In this document: piece by piece, positions 3,483-36,112 of the stretch
How positions within the stretch are numbered: the first letter of the stretch is position 1
How the letters are laid out: the number at the start of each line of letters is the position of its first letter
DNA from: Bacteroidia bacterium
GTDB lineage: Bacteria; Bacteroidota; Bacteroidia; Flavobacteriales; Flavobacteriaceae
Direction: 5' to 3'
Length of the DNA: 64,000 bases
Assembly: GCA_030425285.1 (NCBI GenBank)
Contig: JAUIAY010000013.1
Span: 1-64,000 of the forward strand
The notes under the pieces: model-generated
Told to the model about the DNA's origin: nothing
What the model saw: only the letters and a program-made list of their open reading frames with translations
Database searches by the model: none
Program-made: the position numbers and the translations under genes

Positions 3483-4064
3483 ATGAACACCACTAAAGTT
3501 TTTCTTGAAAATACCTACGTTAAACTATCACTTTTAGACTTAAGTAATTATAAAAATCTTTTAGAAATAGCGAGTGAGAAAGATTTAATTCAATATTCCC
3601 CTTCAAATATTTCTTCTCCTGAAAGTCTAAAAGAATATGTTCAAAAAGCTGTAGATGGTTATTACCATAAAACCACAATACCTTTTATTATTTTTGATAA
3701 GCAAAAAAATGTGTATGCAGGTTCAACCAGGTTTGGCTTAATAGATTGGCACAACAAAACACTTCATATTGGTTGGACGTGGATTGGCAAAGCATTTCAA
3801 GGAACGGGTTTAAACAGTCAGATTAAATTCTTGATGTTACAATATGCCTTTGAGGTTTTACAATTTGAAAAAGTAGAATTTCGCATTGATGAACGCAACA
3901 CAAGATCCAGAAAGGCAGTTGAAAAATTAGGAGCTACACATGAAGGTGTTTTAAGAAAGGATACCTTAATGAAAGATGGTTTTAGGCGGAATACCTGTTG
4001 CTATGGTATTTTAAAAAGTGAATGGCCTAAAATCAAACAAACAGTTTTTAAAAACTTTAGTTAA
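3483..4064 (+). CDS. GNAT family N-acetyltransferase (RimJ/RimL type)
   Basis: 193 residues with the acetyltransf_3 layout of the RimJ/RimL branch: an N-terminal LSLLDLSNY segment, a central IGWTWIGKAFQGTGLNSQ stretch carrying the acetyl-CoA pyrophosphate-binding loop (QGTGLN), and the C-terminal FRIDERNTRSRKAVEKLGA motif typical of this branch. It transfers acetyl from acetyl-CoA to an amine; the acceptor cannot be told from sequence. The gene stands alone; its 3' end overlaps the convergent flavin oxidoreductase by 4 bp. Confidence 0.88.
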   Translation: MNTTKVFLENTYVKLSLLDLSNYKNLLEIASEKDLIQYSPSNISSPESLKEYVQKAVDGYYHKTTIPFIIFDKQKNVYAGSTRFGLIDWHNKTLHIGWTWIGKAFQGTGLNSQIKFLMLQYAFEVLQFEKVEFRIDERNTRSRKAVEKLGATHEGVLRKDTLMKDGFRRNTCCYGILKSEWPKIKQTVFKNFS

Positions 4065-5011
4065 TTATTAATCAATTTAGTTACAATTTCCTTAACTGGT
4101 AAAATTTCATGGGTATACTCTATACTTGGTCCTGCTACCCAAACTGTTTTGTAGGTAGCTTTTAAAGCTGCTTTTTCAGTAGCCTTCATTCCAATGTAAA
4201 AACGTAGCATTTTTACCCATTTTTTAAACTTTTTATTTTTATTTAAAACCCTTTCAATCCAAGGTGATTTGGTTCCGATTTTTTGAACATATGGCGTATT
4301 GATAACTGTACAAGGAGTTCCCGAAATACGTTCGGTAACGACAATATCTTCAGCACCATAATCCACACAAGCTTGTTTATATTCTTGTGTCACATTAGCC
4401 TCTTTTGATGCAATAAACGGACTTCCAACCGAAACACCTTCGGCTCCATATTCAAGCATTTTATCAACATCAGCCTTACAACCTACACCACCGGCAGAAA
4501 TAACCGGAATAGATACATTCTCTTTTAATGCCTTAATGATTTCTTGTGGTGATAAGTTCCCTCTGTGACCACCGGCTTCATTATTAACTGCTATAACCGC
4601 ATCAGCACCAAAATTTTCTACTTTTTGAGCAAAATGTAAATCGGTTACATCGCAAAACACTTTAATACCTACTGCATGAGCCTCCCTAATCGTTTCTTCC
4701 GGGCTACCAAGTGATGTTATGATAAAATCACATCCTTCCTCACATAGTACACGCAATTGCTCTTTATACTTAACATTTGACTTATTGACAATCAAGTTAA
4801 ATCCAAAAGAACCTCCTTCTACTTTAGCCGCCTTGAGCTCCTTAATGGCTGCACGTAATTCAGACAACGTTCTATAATTTAATGCTGGTATACAACCTGC
4901 AATTCCTGCTTTCATGGCTTCAATAACCATTTCAGTATTTGACACCAAAAACATTGGGGCTTGAATAATAGGATATTTTATATTGAGTAGTTGCGTGAGT
5001 TTTGTTTGCAT
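4061..5011 (-). CDS. NAD(P)H-dependent flavin oxidoreductase / nitronate monooxygenase family
   Basis: 316 residues with the FMN-binding TIM-barrel of the nitronate monooxygenase (2-nitropropane dioxygenase) family: IKYPIIQAPMFLVS at the start, NNEAGGHRG with the conserved active-site His, then VISAGGVG and GVSVGSPFIAS phosphate-binding loops. Family members oxidise alkyl nitronates or act as quinone or enoyl reductases; the substrate is undetermined. The gene follows dnaK on the same strand, separated from it by the dnaK terminator, so it is probably transcribed separately. Confidence 0.85.
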   Translation of the reverse strand: MQTKLTQLLNIKYPIIQAPMFLVSNTEMVIEAMKAGIAGCIPALNYRTLSELRAAIKELKAAKVEGGSFGFNLIVNKSNVKYKEQLRVLCEEGCDFIITSLGSPEETIREAHAVGIKVFCDVTDLHFAQKVENFGADAVIAVNNEAGGHRGNLSPQEIIKALKENVSIPVISAGGVGCKADVDKMLEYGAEGVSVGSPFIASKEANVTQEYKQACVDYGAEDIVVTERISGTPCTVINTPYVQKIGTKSPWIERVLNKNKKFKKWVKMLRFYIGMKATEKAALKATYKTVWVAGPSIEYTHEILPVKEIVTKLINN

Positions 5012-7853: not shown

Positions 7854-9278
7854 ATGGAGTCCATTTCGGTTTTTGATATGCTAAAAATTGGCGTCGGGCC
7901 ATCTAGTTCGCATACTTTAGGGCCTTGGCGAGCAGCTGAACGCTGGATTAAAGAACTAAAGGATTCTAACCGATTTGACAAAGTTGAAAGTATCAAAGTT
8001 GACCTCTATGGTTCCCTATCACTCACAGGAAAAGGACACGCCACTGATTTAGCCGTGATGCTTGGGTTGAGTGGAGCCGATCCAGAGTTGATTCCTACAG
8101 AAAGTATTGACGTGATTATTAACGCTATTACCAACTCTGGCAATATCATTTTCAATAACGAAGCTACTTTACCATTCAACCTGGAAAATGATATTGTATT
8201 TAACAAAAAGTTTTTGCCATTCCATTCCAATGGAATGACCTTTACTGCTACTATCAATGGTCGAAATTATAAATCAACCTACTACTCCATTGGTGGCGGA
8301 TTTGTTGTGCAGGAAGAACGCAAAAGATCTAAAGCCAACAAAATCATTTTTTATTGCACATTTCCCTACCCTGTTGAAAACGGTACACAACTATTGAATT
8401 TTTGCAACCAGTTACAATTACCTATTTCGGGTGTTGTTCTTGAAAATGAAAAATCCATTAGACCAATTGAAACTATAGATTTTGAATTACAACGCATTTG
8501 GAACACCATGCTGGAATGTATGTATTTGGGTTGTCATACCGAAGGTAGTCTTCCTGGTGGTTTAAATGTAAGACGTCGTGCTTTTGATATGCATAAAAAT
8601 TTAATTGGCAATACACCTTATAGTGATCCCATTGAATGGATTCAATCTATACGGAATACCGAAGTTAAGTTTAGACAAATCATCAAATGGGTTAGCTGTT
8701 TTGCGTTAGCCGTCAATGAAGTCAATGCCTCTTTGGGGCGCGTAGTTACTGCGCCAACAAACGGAAGTGCGGGTGTAATCCCTGCAGTTTTGATGTATTA
8801 TTTGGTTATTGAAAACCACGATGGAAATTTTGAGGATATCAAACGTTTCTTGTTGGTTGCTGGTGAAATAGGCAGCATCTTTAAAAAAGGCGCAACCATT
8901 TCAGCTGCTATGGGAGGCTGTCAGGCTGAAATTGGCGTGTCATCTGCTATGGCTGCTGCAGCTTTGTGTGAATTGCAAGGAGGCACTCCCGAACAAGTAC
9001 TGATTGCTGCTGAAATTGCCATGGAACACCATTTAGGCATGACCTGTGATCCAATAGGTGGATTGGTTCAAATTCCTTGTATAGAACGCAATGCCATGGG
9101 AGCCATTAAAGCCATAAATGCTTCTGAACTCGCATTGGACACCGATCCTAATAATGTAAAAGTCCCATTGGATAAAGTCGTCCAAACCATGTGGGAAACG
9201 GCAAAAGATATGAATTCCAAATACAAGGAAACCAGTGAAGGTGGTTTGGCCGTAGGTGTTAATCTATCCGATTGTTAA
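7854..9278 (+). CDS. sdaA: L-serine ammonia-lyase (L-serine dehydratase), single chain
   Basis: 474 residues, the single-chain form with beta and alpha parts fused. The N-terminus has the family motif [11 protein letters not shown]; the C-terminal half has [24 protein letters not shown] and [12 protein letters not shown], whose cysteines bind the oxygen-sensitive [4Fe-4S] cluster. It deaminates L-serine to pyruvate and ammonia in the cytoplasm. A TATATTTG -7 box at 7820-7827 fits the Bacteroidota promoter type, but I see no TTG at the right distance. It converges on the outer-membrane gene 8 bp beyond its stop. Confidence 0.95.
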
Positions 9279-32591: not shown

Positions 32592-33308
32592 TTGCAAAAT
32601 CAAAACAACATAACCTGCCTGATTGTTGATGACGAAAGCATCGCCAGAGAAGTCATTGCAACGCATTTAAGCAAGATTGACAACATTACCGTATTGGCCA
32701 GTTGCAGCAGTGCCATGGAAGCCTTTAAAATTATCAATGCCCATAAAGTGGATTTGATCTTTTTGGATATCAACATGCCTGATGTGTCTGGCATTTCATT
32801 TGCCAAATCCATAAACAAGGACATCAAGATTATTTTTACAACGGCCTATCGGGATTATGCTGTGGAAGGATTTGAATTGCAGGCCGTGGATTACCTGTTA
32901 AAACCCATAGCGTTTGAGCGCCTTTTAAAAGCAGTCAATACCTACTTTAATGTGTATTCCAATACAACCTCTGAAACAGCTTCCCAACTGGAAGCCAACC
33001 CATTTATGTTTGTACGTTCCGATAGGCGTATGATTAAAATTGATTTTAACGCGATTGTTTACGTTGAAAGCTATAGTGACTATATAAAAATCCATCTAGA
33101 GAATGAAACCATTGTCACTCGGGAAACTATTAGTGCTATTGAAGCCAAGCTACCCAACAATCAGTTTTTACGGATTCACCGATCGTTTATTGTGTCCATA
33201 GCGCACATCACCTCCTTTACCAATGAGCATGTCATAATTCAAGGTAAAGCCTTAACCATTAGCCGAAGTTATAAAAAAGAAGCACTTGAGGTTTTGGAGC
33301 GGTATTAA
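32592..33308 (+). CDS. LytTR-family response regulator
   Basis: 238 residues from a TTG directly after the kinase stop; there is no ATG nearby. The receiver domain (8-120) has CLIVDDES, the phospho-acceptor Asp in LIFLDINMPDVSG, the Thr in IIFTTAYRDY and Lys in DYLLKPIAFERLL. The C-terminal LytTR DNA-binding domain (about 140-238) has IKIDFNAIVYVESYSDYIKIHL and FLRIHRSFIVSIAHI. It is co-transcribed with the LytS-type kinase; the divergent esterase operon is a plausible target. Confidence 0.95.
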   Translation: MQNQNNITCLIVDDESIAREVIATHLSKIDNITVLASCSSAMEAFKIINAHKVDLIFLDINMPDVSGISFAKSINKDIKIIFTTAYRDYAVEGFELQAVDYLLKPIAFERLLKAVNTYFNVYSNTTSETASQLEANPFMFVRSDRRMIKIDFNAIVYVESYSDYIKIHLENETIVTRETISAIEAKLPNNQFLRIHRSFIVSIAHITSFTNEHVIIQGKALTISRSYKKEALEVLERY

Positions 33309-33309
33309 A

Positions 33310-33379
33310 TTGTCATTCCTGCGAAAGCGGGAATCTATATATTTTTAAAGTAGATTCCGCATCATGTGCGGAATGACAA
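33310..33379. repeat. 70-bp REP/MITE-like palindromic element
   Basis: Begins TTGTCATTCC and ends GGAATGACAA, a perfect 10-bp terminal inverted repeat. Inside are two hairpins: CCTGCGAAAGCGGG on the left and CCGCATCATGTGCGG on the right, separated by an AT-rich centre (inner arms GGAATCTA / TAGATTCC). It starts 2 bp after the response-regulator stop and could also act as its transcript 3' end. Confidence 0.7.
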
Positions 33380-33419
33380 ATGCAAGGACTTCCGTAAGTA
33401 GGCTTGTGACAGCAATTTA

Positions 33420-33436
33420 TTATAGCCATTGTTGTG
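33420..33436 (+). repeat. 17-bp direct repeat, left copy
   Basis: TTATAGCCATTGTTGTG, identical to 33896-33912. The two copies bracket the 21-bp array; both are preceded, a few bases upstream, by ACAGC. Confidence 0.75.
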
Positions 33437-33465
33437 CTTTGGTTGTTTTTTACTCAATGCTTTTT

Positions 33466-33864
33466 AATCAAAAGTCTGGAATGGTCAATCAAAAGTCTGG
33501 AATGGTTAATCTAAACTCTAGAACGAGTAATCAAAAGTCTGGAATGGTCAATCAAAAGTCTGGAATGGTCAATCAAAAGTCTGGAATGGTTAATCAAAAC
33601 TTTGTACCACTCAATCAAAACCTTGCGGTAAGCAATCAAAACTTTGTGGTAGGCAATCAAAACTTTGTGGTAGGCAATCAAAACTTTGCTGTAGGCAATC
33701 AAAAGTAGAACATAGTCAATCAAAAGTGGAACATGACCAATCAAAAGTGGAACATGACCAATCAAAAGTGGAACATGACCAATCAAAAGTGGAACATGGT
33801 CAATCTAAAGTAGAACATGGTCAATCTAAAGTGGAACATGACCAATCTAAAGTGGAACATGTAT
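33466..33864 (+). repeat. tandem array of nineteen 21-bp units
   Basis: Nineteen consecutive 21-base units with no insertion or deletion (399 bp). Each begins AATCAAA or AATCTAA. The second part falls into three blocks: units 1-6 with GTCTGGAATGGT (unit 3 diverged), units 7-11 with ACTTTGTGGTAGG-like sequence, units 12-19 with GTGGAACATGACC or a close variant. The block order shows local unit duplication. There are no spacers, so it is not CRISPR. 21 bp is two helical turns, putting each AATCAAA on the same DNA face. Confidence 0.92.
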
Positions 33865-33895
33865 AACTAGAAGTAAGCTAGAACAGCGCCATTAC

Positions 33896-33912
33896 TTATA
33901 GCCATTGTTGTG
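33896..33912 (+). repeat. 17-bp direct repeat, right copy
   Basis: Identical to 33420-33436. Its last bases overlap the left inverted repeat (33907-33920) of the AAA+ cassette, so it marks a boundary shared by the array and the cassette. Confidence 0.75.
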
Positions 33913-33921
33913 TGTAGTGCT

Positions 33922-35106
33922 TTATTCATCGTTTTTCACTAATAATTTCATTACAGATTTAACAAATGTATCTTTTATTTTTTTATTTAAATCTCTCATA
34001 TTTTTGTAATTACTTACATTAATTCGGTTCAGAATATCATTTGTGATATTTGCAGGAAGTTCAAAATCAAAATTCTTATTGAATTTTTCAATTATGTTTT
34101 TAACTCTGAATTCTGTGAACTTTTCCTTGTGGCTATGAAATAAAGGCATAAAGTATCCTTTATAATCAAATCTTGACCTTAATTCTGGTGAGATTCGTTT
34201 TGGGAATTCGTCTTTACTGATATTAGAAGTAAAAATAATAATGAAGCCGTTCAAGTCAATTTCTTCTGCAATTGAACTGACCATTTTTCCGCTTTCGAGA
34301 ACGTCTAAAAAGTAATTAAAAAGAGTAGAGTTTGACTTTTCGAATTCGTCTATTAAGATGATTCCAATATCAGAATCTTTTACTCTAATGAAGAGTTCTC
34401 CACCTTCACTACCAACATAACCCCTTGGACTACCTATTAATGAATTCAAGGAATTATCACTACTGTAATTCCCAAAATTTATTTTAGCAAGTTTTTTCTT
34501 TCCACCAAGTGATTTATGAATTGCCCTTGCTACTTCTGTTTTTCCAACCCCTGAATCTCCCATCAAAAACAATGATAATATTTTGTGTTCTCCCAGTTTG
34601 TTGAAAACTCTGAAGTTTCTTATTAATTCTGTAAAATCGTCTTTGAATTTTTCGTGACCATAGATTTGATTTTTAAATGAATTAACAAAATCATCTATTT
34701 CATCATTATCAAGGTCTATAATTTTTCTGTGTTTTAATTTTTTAGATTGTACAGTATTTTCTACTTCGTTGTACTCGACATCGATATCTTCAATTAAATC
34801 GATGTCAACAAATTCTCCAAAGCAATATCGTAATTCGTGCTCAAATAATTTTTTATGTTCTTTATCAGCTATGAAAATTGTATTGAAAGGAAATTTAGGA
34901 AAAACTAACTCTGCATTGTATTGCAATCTGTCAAGTCCAGATAGAGAAGAAATATCTACAATCTGGATATCTTCATTCACTTCGTTTATTTTATCAAAAT
35001 TCAATAATCCATCTGTGATACTTATGATTTCTTTGCCTTCTTCTAATTTTAAGGCTTTGTAAAAGTTGAAGTACAACTTATCAAAAAAAAGTAATTGCTC
35101 TCTCAT
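33922..35106 (-). CDS. Hsp100/Clp-like single-ring AAA+ ATPase of unknown system
   Basis: 394 residues. Residues 1-145 match nothing I recognise and are acidic. Residues about 145-390 are a ClpA/ClpB D2-like AAA+ module: Walker A GDSGVGKT (183-190), pore loop GYVG (229-232, with the substrate-gripping Tyr), Walker B IILIDEFEK (Asp253, Glu254), sensor 1 TSN (293-295), arginine-finger segment ELRSRFD (308-314), and sensor-2-like NMRDLNK (Arg371). All catalytic residues are present, so it should hydrolyse ATP and thread protein. There is no second AAA ring and no Clp N-domain. It lies 8 bp after the DUF6414-like gene, forming a two-gene operon inside the inverted-repeat cassette. Confidence 0.85.
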   Translation of the reverse strand: MREQLLFFDKLYFNFYKALKLEEGKEIISITDGLLNFDKINEVNEDIQIVDISSLSGLDRLQYNAELVFPKFPFNTIFIADKEHKKLFEHELRYCFGEFVDIDLIEDIDVEYNEVENTVQSKKLKHRKIIDLDNDEIDDFVNSFKNQIYGHEKFKDDFTELIRNFRVFNKLGEHKILSLFLMGDSGVGKTEVARAIHKSLGGKKKLAKINFGNYSSDNSLNSLIGSPRGYVGSEGGELFIRVKDSDIGIILIDEFEKSNSTLFNYFLDVLESGKMVSSIAEEIDLNGFIIIFTSNISKDEFPKRISPELRSRFDYKGYFMPLFHSHKEKFTEFRVKNIIEKFNKNFDFELPANITNDILNRINVSNYKNMRDLNKKIKDTFVKSVMKLLVKNDE

Positions 35107-35114
35107 TGATAAGT

Positions 35115-35984
35115 TTATTGATTTGGAATTTCTACATTCTGTATTATTGCTAATAAATCTATATAATGAAATTCTTTGTCAGCATCTTTTGAACTTGCAA
35201 ATAGAAAACCTGTGTTCTCATTTTTTACTGTGTACTGACTGTCTTGAATTTCTTTAACTTCATCCTCTTTATTAGCCATCACATTCTGCATTGTACCTAT
35301 TTCTTGGAAAAACTCTAAAGAATTTTTTAAGGAATCAATTTTAATTTTTCCTTTGTACAATCCAACAATTGAAACTTTGCCAATAAACAAGTCATCAACA
35401 CTATAAGAACTTTCAAATTCGCTTTCAAAAGTCAAAGGGATTTTAACTAATAATTCATCAGTACTTTCCGCTATTACTCCTTTCATTTTGTAGGCGTAGT
35501 CTTTGAACATAGAATTAAATAAATTATTTATATCAAATCCATTTGCTCCAGGTATGTTCATTCCCTTAAAAGAACCACTTGTAAACAGTTTAACAGTTCT
35601 TAACTCAGGTTCATTTTCTAAAGTTAGATTGACATTGTCTATTTTTATTAAGCTCCCTTCCTTAACTCTGTCAAAACTTGTAATCAGTTTGCTTTTTTCA
35701 ATTATCTCATTTAAAATAACTGATTTCGTTGTTTTAATCTCGAAAGTTTCCAGTACTTTCTGCGAATCCGATTTAATATTTTTGCGTCCAATTTCTCCAT
35801 CAATTGACGCACCAGCTATGTTAAATAGATTAAGAAAATTAACGCCTAATTTTCCTCGATAATCTACTTCCTTTCCGTCTCTAACGTCAGTCTCCTTTTC
35901 TTTACTTAATGCAATAACATTACTTAACATCATTTTGATTTCGTAAACTTTGGGAAAATTAATATAGTAGATGTTAAATATCAT
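35115..35984 (-). CDS. DUF6414-like protein, partner of the AAA+ ATPase
   Basis: 289 residues, no signal peptide or membrane segment. N-terminal IYYINFPKVYEIKMMLSNV, a Gly/Asn-rich stretch (GKLGVNFLNLFNIAGASIDGEIG), then VILNEIIEKSKLITSFDRVKEGSLIKIDNVNL and later LLVKIPLTFES...FIGKVSIVGLYKGKI. This order (short N-terminal strand, Gly-rich region, a domain asking for a 'G-ff-i' segment, then a beta-rich end with IVG) resembles DUF6414 proteins as I remember them, but I cannot confirm by search. First gene of the pair. It could be a substrate, adaptor or effector of the ATPase; no catalytic motif is visible. Confidence 0.6.
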   Translation of the reverse strand: MIFNIYYINFPKVYEIKMMLSNVIALSKEKETDVRDGKEVDYRGKLGVNFLNLFNIAGASIDGEIGRKNIKSDSQKVLETFEIKTTKSVILNEIIEKSKLITSFDRVKEGSLIKIDNVNLTLENEPELRTVKLFTSGSFKGMNIPGANGFDINNLFNSMFKDYAYKMKGVIAESTDELLVKIPLTFESEFESSYSVDDLFIGKVSIVGLYKGKIKIDSLKNSLEFFQEIGTMQNVMANKEDEVKEIQDSQYTVKNENTGFLFASSKDADKEFHYIDLLAIIQNVEIPNQ

Positions 35985-36112
35985 TTTTTCAATTTGTTAA
36001 CGGTTTTCTTTGCATTACACACAACGATTTGACATAAAATCGTTTTAATCTTGTAAACGAAGTTAAAATTTTATTTAAAGAATTCGTGTTCAAGTTATTA
36101 ACAGTTATAAAC

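Follow-up and report, generated by a model that had tools for sequence, protein, structure and literature searches.

Between a LytTR response regulator gene and a two-gene stretch on the other strand, the window (the whole 64,000-nucleotide stretch of DNA that was analyzed, from a Hanstruepera genome) contains an array of 21-bp direct repeats. The array begins 157 bp from the end of the LytTR gene on its left, and the 3' end of the two-gene stretch lies 58 bp to its right. What kind of element is this array, and is its regular spacing selected? Our preferred answer, which we hold to be somewhat probable, is that it belongs to a non-coding, lineage-specific satellite of Hanstruepera that grows and exchanges units in a 21-bp register at junctions between accessory and core genes.

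The array (33466-33864) is 399 bp long and consists of nineteen 21-bp units with zero indels. Fifteen units begin with AATCAAA and four with AATCTAA, and there are thirteen distinct units. The initial annotation had read both the unit count and the unit start in this way. Identity at lag 21 is 0.849, compared with a maximum of 0.354 among 2000 mononucleotide shuffles, and Tandem Repeats Finder reports overlapping arrays with periods of 21, 42 and 63. Three blocks of different second halves had been described; the blockwise arrangement holds, and the second halves are better put as four tail types (Table 1): A (gtctggaatggtc, 6 units), B (ctttgtaccactc, 1 unit), C (ctttgtggtaggc-like, 4 units) and D (gtggaacatgacc-like, 8 units). 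Identity at lags 7 and 14 is slightly raised, at 0.36 and 0.37, compared with at most 0.33 at the other lags below 21. The lag-7 signal is not clear in two further arrays of the same genome, C5 and C8.

Table 1. Features in and around the repeat array (positions are those of the window)
Feature	Position	Strand	Description
LytTR response regulator gene, left neighbor	32592..33308	+	Pfam Response_reg + LytTR; DNA match in 5/5 species
REP-like imperfect palindrome	33311..33378	.	tgtcattcctgcg...gcggaatgaca; partly terminator-like; pieces recur in genome
attC-like half-site left of array	33405..33437	-	profile score 22.2
Block A	33466..33591	+	6 units of 21 bp, AATCAAAAGTCTGGAATGGTC type, one AATCTAA variant
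Block B/C	33592..33696	+	5 units: CTTTGTACCACTC x1, CTTTGTGGTAGGC-like x4
Block D	33697..33864	+	8 units, AGTGGAACATGACC type, final three begin AATCTAA
attC-like half-site between array and right-hand gene	33868..33920	-	cassette sense GCACTACACACAACAATGGCTATAAGTAATGGCGC...; profile score 27.4
AAA ATPase, candidate defense protein PDC-M37B	33922..35106	-	3' end faces array; PADLOC E 2.5e-150; Pfam AAA_2
Candidate defense protein PDC-M37A	35115..35984	-	PADLOC E 2.4e-108; no Pfam family
Inverted repeat pair	36012..36025 vs 33907-33920	.	GCATTACACACAAC vs GTTGTGTGTAGTGC; 13/14 match, by eye

The window array is one of a family. BLAST of the window array against its own genome, followed by pattern searches that added more, found 21-bp arrays in all five Hanstruepera genomes: 14 arrays at nine chromosomal loci, the loci being grouped by left-hand gene. 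Eight are in the window's own genome (labels beginning with C, and the window array itself), where the initial annotation had proposed looking for further units; one each is in G001 and G002, and two each are in G003 and G004. A further stretch, C16b, which was put into the same alignment, contains no array and was dropped. Orthologous sets are C5/G3/G4, C7/G1, C15/G4b and C16a/G3b, with left-hand proteins 68-93% identical between members. The 14 arrays hold 248 full 21-bp units, 197 of them distinct (unit extraction omits incomplete end units, and the window array counts as 18 there), and unit number spans about 5 to 31 across arrays. Variable unit lengths in relatives, which had been named as evidence against a fixed register, are absent from the 14 arrays apart from a single 20-bp unit at the right-hand end of C15. 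The units were aligned to a cyclic profile with indels allowed; paired gap calls in G3b cancel, and its units read 21 bp.

In all of these arrays, the unit is a mosaic in which a conserved AAT[CA]A start is joined to one of several interchangeable tails. A second sub-family starts with AATAACG or AATCACT and has similar tails (TACCACTC, CGGTGGCC, GGAACGACC and GGAACATGGTC) as well as GTTGTAACC, with prefixes and tails combined. At the 14 array loci, the best three-unit profile score lies between 55.8 and 79.7; the 11 stretches that we term array-free all score below zero. A strict four-unit pattern matched 6 of 397 genomes of the bacterial family: three are Hanstruepera, and three, out of the 394 from other genera, carry other repeats. 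Because this pattern misses AATAACG-type units, restriction to the genus is shown only for the AATCAAA type. Among the matches listed (at least 115 loci), the nearest repeat outside Hanstruepera is in Neptunitalea, with a profile score of 27.3.

The arrays have a fixed orientation relative to their right-hand genes. With each array read in its own orientation and ORFs of 80 aa or longer considered, all 14 arrays have a nearest right-hand gene that points towards them, and the left-hand gene can point either way. Pfam assigns the left-hand genes to a response regulator, an epimerase, a redoxin, a weak MauE match, a prolyl oligopeptidase, a YchF GTPase and an M24 peptidase, and finds no family for those of the sets C7/G1 and C16a/G3b. 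At C1 the left-hand ORF that was called is probably spurious; the prolyl oligopeptidase gene, on the other strand, is the nearest real one. The right-hand genes include PDC-M37 (window), PDC-M29 (C5), a STAND NTPase (C7) and a CoiA-like protein (G4); the DUF1254/DUF1214 gene at C1 is an exception in kind. PADLOC recognized the first right-hand gene at two of the 14 arrays. PDC-M37A and PDC-M37B (33922-35984) are a candidate two-gene anti-phage system, and the inverted repeats of Table 1 are likely the ends of the inserted two-gene stretch, judging from a boundary set by eye against the insert-free locus of another species. This insert lies between convergent core genes, and three other species hold other sequence at that spot.

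Some arrays also meet REP-like sequence. In G002 (L044), the first unit of the array directly adjoins a palindrome similar to the one left of the window array. The REP tail was considered as a source of the unit, but its pattern has six matches in two of the five genomes, four of them inside arrays, with two as first units, which is compatible with descent in either direction.

Comparison of the same loci between species shows that the arrays are present only sporadically. At the LytTR/lpd locus, one of the five species has the array, three have other sequence between both genes and one has almost none. The redoxin-gene locus (C8) likewise has an array in one of five; in the remaining four species these flanks are 2.6-8 kb apart, and the profile detects no array between them. 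Two species have arrays beside the 223-aa gene (C7/G1). Of the other three, G002 lacks an insert there, G004 contains a different insert with short heptamers and G003 contains different genes, and neither of the latter two has an array at this place. The epimerase locus has arrays of 31, 29 and 12 units in three species, with differing right-hand genes, and its flanks are not together in the remaining two. The initial annotation had proposed comparing unit number between strains; unit number does differ at this locus, the comparison here being between species.

Units are also shared between loci of one genome. When target arrays were cut to equal size, an own-genome array was nearer than the orthologous array in three of the four sets. 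C5 units have 2.33 mismatches to the window array compared with 3.91 to G3, and 3.04 compared with 4.03 to G4. C7 units have 3.20 mismatches to C15 compared with 6.83 to the orthologous array, and C15 units have 3.93 to C7 compared with 4.92 to the orthologous G4b. In the C16a set the distances are about equal (4.15 and 4.08 compared with 4.26). Sharing does not extend to every own-genome array, which counts against the satellite reading: C8 and C1 lie about as far from C5 (4.03 and 3.83) as G3 does (3.91), and C16a is no closer to C15 (5.03) than G4b is (4.92). Because units resemble one own-genome array more than the ortholog in three of four sets, the sharing would best be read as exchange between loci.

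We suggest that the 21-bp units of the satellite, which have diverged and may each be three fused heptamers, sit at the tail ends of those accessory genes that abut core genes. The arrays would lengthen, shorten and swap units between loci in whole 21-bp steps, and the register would thus be copied along with the DNA. We infer that recombination or slippage is the copying mechanism and that the arrays have no necessary host function.

Heptamers themselves occur in these genomes. G002 has a pure heptamer array, (AATCACT)n, at L192 about 1994-2076 (G002:C5:547993-548075). AATCACT is also the start of some 21-bp units, and (AATCACT)n is a possible ancestor or relative of the satellite, judging by this likeness. 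Runs of another heptamer, GACNGAA / GACCGAT, lie to the left of several arrays or replace one (L190 about 3940-4080, L009 about 4555-4605 and L182 about 8900-8955), and L190 contains two copies of a three-heptamer tandem, GACCGAAGACTGAAGATTAAT. Such heptamer arrays and the slight rise in identity at lags 7 and 14 speak for the satellite, and the unclear lag-7 signal in C5 and C8 speaks against it.

The pattern of change along the unit is not what we would expect of a purely neutral satellite, because constraint on the columns is uneven beyond chance. In the seven arrays of the window's genome that were found by BLAST or synteny and not by the AAT pattern, columns 1, 2, 3 and 5 changed 2, 2, 1 and 3 times and columns 19-21 changed 21, 20 and 20 times. 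Column dispersion over the 21 columns is 4.13, compared with a maximum of 2.53 in 5000 simulations on a rough tree. The AAT.A core is held while the tails vary; AAT changes far less than the remainder of the unit, in agreement with the conserved unit start proposed initially. Uneven constraint and constant orientation, which both count against a pure satellite, together suggest something more than a satellite, the simplest candidate being a protein that recognizes AAT.A once in every two turns.

A tentative alternative, clearly less probable than the satellite, is an iteron-like array, in which a host or mobile-element protein would bind the AAT[CA]A of each unit on one face of the DNA, two helical turns apart, and would act in recombination, silencing or insulation at the accessory/core junction. 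The strong conservation of AAT.A relative to the rest of the unit is consistent with such binding. So are the fixed orientation in 14 of 14 arrays, the attC-like halves at the junction (below), and an array of the same architecture and partial sequence likeness on the Acinetobacter lwoffii plasmid pH7-108. However, there is no candidate protein, many comparable insertion loci have no array, and unit number ranges from about 5 to 31.

The register, being kept through differing tail types, also speaks for an iteron-like array. The initial annotation had taken the strict retention of 21 bp to suggest that phase is selected. The register is indeed kept across 14 arrays, five species and 248 full units, and it persists although, read by eye, GGAA is displaced by two bases between types A and D; such a displacement at constant unit length hints at compensated indels. 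As a yardstick for indels we took dispersed repeats from these genomes and compared the copies with a single reference copy. One family has 83 mismatches to 4 gap openings (excluding a short sixth match, 3 to 0) and another, possibly coding, has 104 to 2 (excluding a short match, 12 to 1), or about 20-50 substitutions per indel. The arrays require from 46 substitutions (alleles per column) to 334 (a Fitch count, inflated by recombination). Because the dispersed repeats thereby predict about 1-17 indels in the arrays and one was seen, the case for length selection is not decisive, and the scarcity of indels speaks only weakly for selection on helical phase.

Sequences resembling integron attC sites lie at several of the junctions. 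We built a half-site profile from ten attC-like ends situated between accessory genes. The half-site between the window array and its right-hand gene scores 27.4, compared with a maximum of 16.0 among 5000 random 150-mers. On the cassette strand, right-hand half-sites exceed the 99th percentile of controls at five of the 14 arrays (window, C4, C7, G2 and G3) and the 95th at eight, the one at C8 falling inside the right-hand gene; on the other strand none of the 14 does. At some of the six arrays below the 95th percentile, attC-like ends can be read by eye, and the profile gives them no support. On the left, the window array is the only one of the 14 above the 99th percentile, and two of 14 are above the 95th (cassette sense). 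Single-stranded DNA folding of both strands of three full attC-like sites was equivocal (z from -2.81 to +0.50).

Elsewhere in the window's genome, such sites follow a recombinase. In L015:160-4815 (G000:C6:146159-150814) and in L016, a 423-aa Xer-like tyrosine recombinase is followed by genes of the same orientation, with attC-like sites, each about 130 bp or longer, between them. A Persicobacter plasmid (L201) carries an attC-like sequence much like these. The recombinase at L015:160-1431 reaches 195.5 bits against a cut-off of 265 for TIGR02249 and 212.3 against one of 220 for NF040815, which is described as a tyrosine recombinase/integron integrase; its best solved relatives are XerC-like and XerA, then IntI4. 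TIGR02249 exceeds its cut-off in none of the five Hanstruepera genomes and in none of 14 control genomes either, hence this search is without a positive control. Because the recombinase falls below the IntI cut-offs and the folding is equivocal, we call the sites attC-like and not attC. The Xer-like recombinase platform is possibly a distinct cassette system of Bacteroidota.

We also considered the array as an attI-like site beside a recombinase and rejected it: seven recombinase-gene stretches, two of which overlap, contain no tandem units, and this absence also argues against an iteron-like array. Single unit-like 21-mers above 9 bits number 7 in the 24.9 kb of seven tyrosine recombinase stretches (two overlap; best 15.6), compared with 8 in 119 kb of background (best 13.0) and none in a smaller 30-kb control. 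The excess near recombinases (L174, L175, L178, L179 and L015) was observed after the fact, and as such it would fit an iteron-like array.

We speculate, with considerable doubt, that attC-type gene cassettes of Bacteroidota have in these arrays an element dedicated to landing or to marking a boundary. Some protein would read AAT[CA]A every two turns, the tails would vary and be swapped between loci, and the array would fix where along the chromosome accessory (sometimes defense) genes enter or stop. A phage or plasmid origin was rejected for want of a close match; the partial matches are to one phage record and two plasmid records, and a type-A pattern is found in no stretch of the viral contigs. 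The Microviridae genome MG945336.1 (L202), at about 600-735, has a non-coding gap with a 19-bp tandem direct repeat, gaaatgtaacatagtcaat, that is weakly similar to type D.

An RNA-level element, either a transcript end or a structured RNA such as the 3' region of the right-hand gene's transcript, is unlikely. The position of the array 3' of the right-hand gene in 14 of 14 cases would fit such an element, but the window array folds no better than shuffles (z of 0.13 and 0.36 for the two strands) and no Rfam family is above its gathering score in 33000-34200. Two sub-threshold Rfam matches cover the REP-like palindrome, outside the array. On these results for the window array, an RNA element was rejected.

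A heptapeptide-coding or phase-variable coding repeat is very improbable. The initial annotation had raised a 7-residue frame, 21 bp being seven codons, and had noted long stop-free runs on both strands. Open runs of 114 aa on the + strand and 91 aa on the - strand are present, but no frame is open throughout it, with 2, 13, 4, 4, 15 and 10 stops in frames +1, +2, +3, -1, -2 and -3. Stops interrupt frame +1 in eight, and frame -1 in seven, of the nine arrays that were extracted first. Parsimony changes are spread evenly over codon positions, at 63:73:70 in the seven own-genome arrays found without the AAT pattern and 110:115:109, with no bias, in all 14. Just as improbable is a regulatory array for the LytTR two-component system: the array does adjoin a LytTR gene and LytTR proteins bind direct repeats, but neither strand of the array or of 33300-33470 has a LytTR-type nonamer (in line with the mismatch to the consensus noted at the outset), the other eight loci are beside other genes and the LytTR/lpd locus is array-free in the four other species.

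The arrays share some features with several known systems and differ from each in others. No title or abstract opening listed for the literature on tandem repeats together with integrons, on 21-bp repeats, on heptamers or on Hanstruepera describes them. The arrays resemble LytTR binding sites in being regularly spaced direct repeats near a LytTR gene, and differ from them in having no consensus match and in occurring away from LytTR genes as well. As with integron attC cassettes and CALINs, there are accessory genes in one orientation with attC-like ends, and elsewhere in the same genome such genes follow a tyrosine recombinase. In contrast to those systems, the recombinase is Xer-like and under the IntI cut-off, and the array itself is no attC.

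Plasmid-type iterons are direct repeats of about 18-22 bp in helical phase. On pH7-108, a 22 bp x 6.9 array lies between ParA and the replication initiator; these repeats are presumably iterons, though not annotated so, and they have AAAGTGGAA in common with type D. The Hanstruepera repeats are similarly direct, tandem, intergenic and about two helical turns long, a likeness that we would read as one of form rather than of shown descent. Unlike iterons, they occur at nine chromosomal loci, have mosaic units and show no adjoining replication initiator: none is present among the array neighbors scanned against Pfam (the right-hand genes of G1, G2, G3 and G3b lie outside the scan).

Bacterial intergenic satellites of 7-bp multiples are known, yet unexplained. 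Hanstruepera offers a tractable case, with a compact set of arrays at junctions of exchangeable genes and a conserved core with freely swapped tails. The same loci with and without an array across species make it possible to test whether a protein reads the repeat and whether the array steers cassette insertion. Intergenic heptamer direct repeats (TAACTGA and others) are described in Beggiatoaceae, Cyanobacteria and Bacteroidetes by MacGregor (2015, PMC4679880), as long arrays in few genomes that are missing from the same spot in relatives, and a role in gene rearrangement is suggested there. Relative to those heptamers, the Hanstruepera unit is a 21-bp mosaic and not TAACTGA, and its units are common to several loci of one genome. 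Like those repeats, however, the Hanstruepera arrays are intergenic and tandem, have a unit that is a multiple of 7 bp, are found in Bacteroidetes, and vary in length and presence between relatives.
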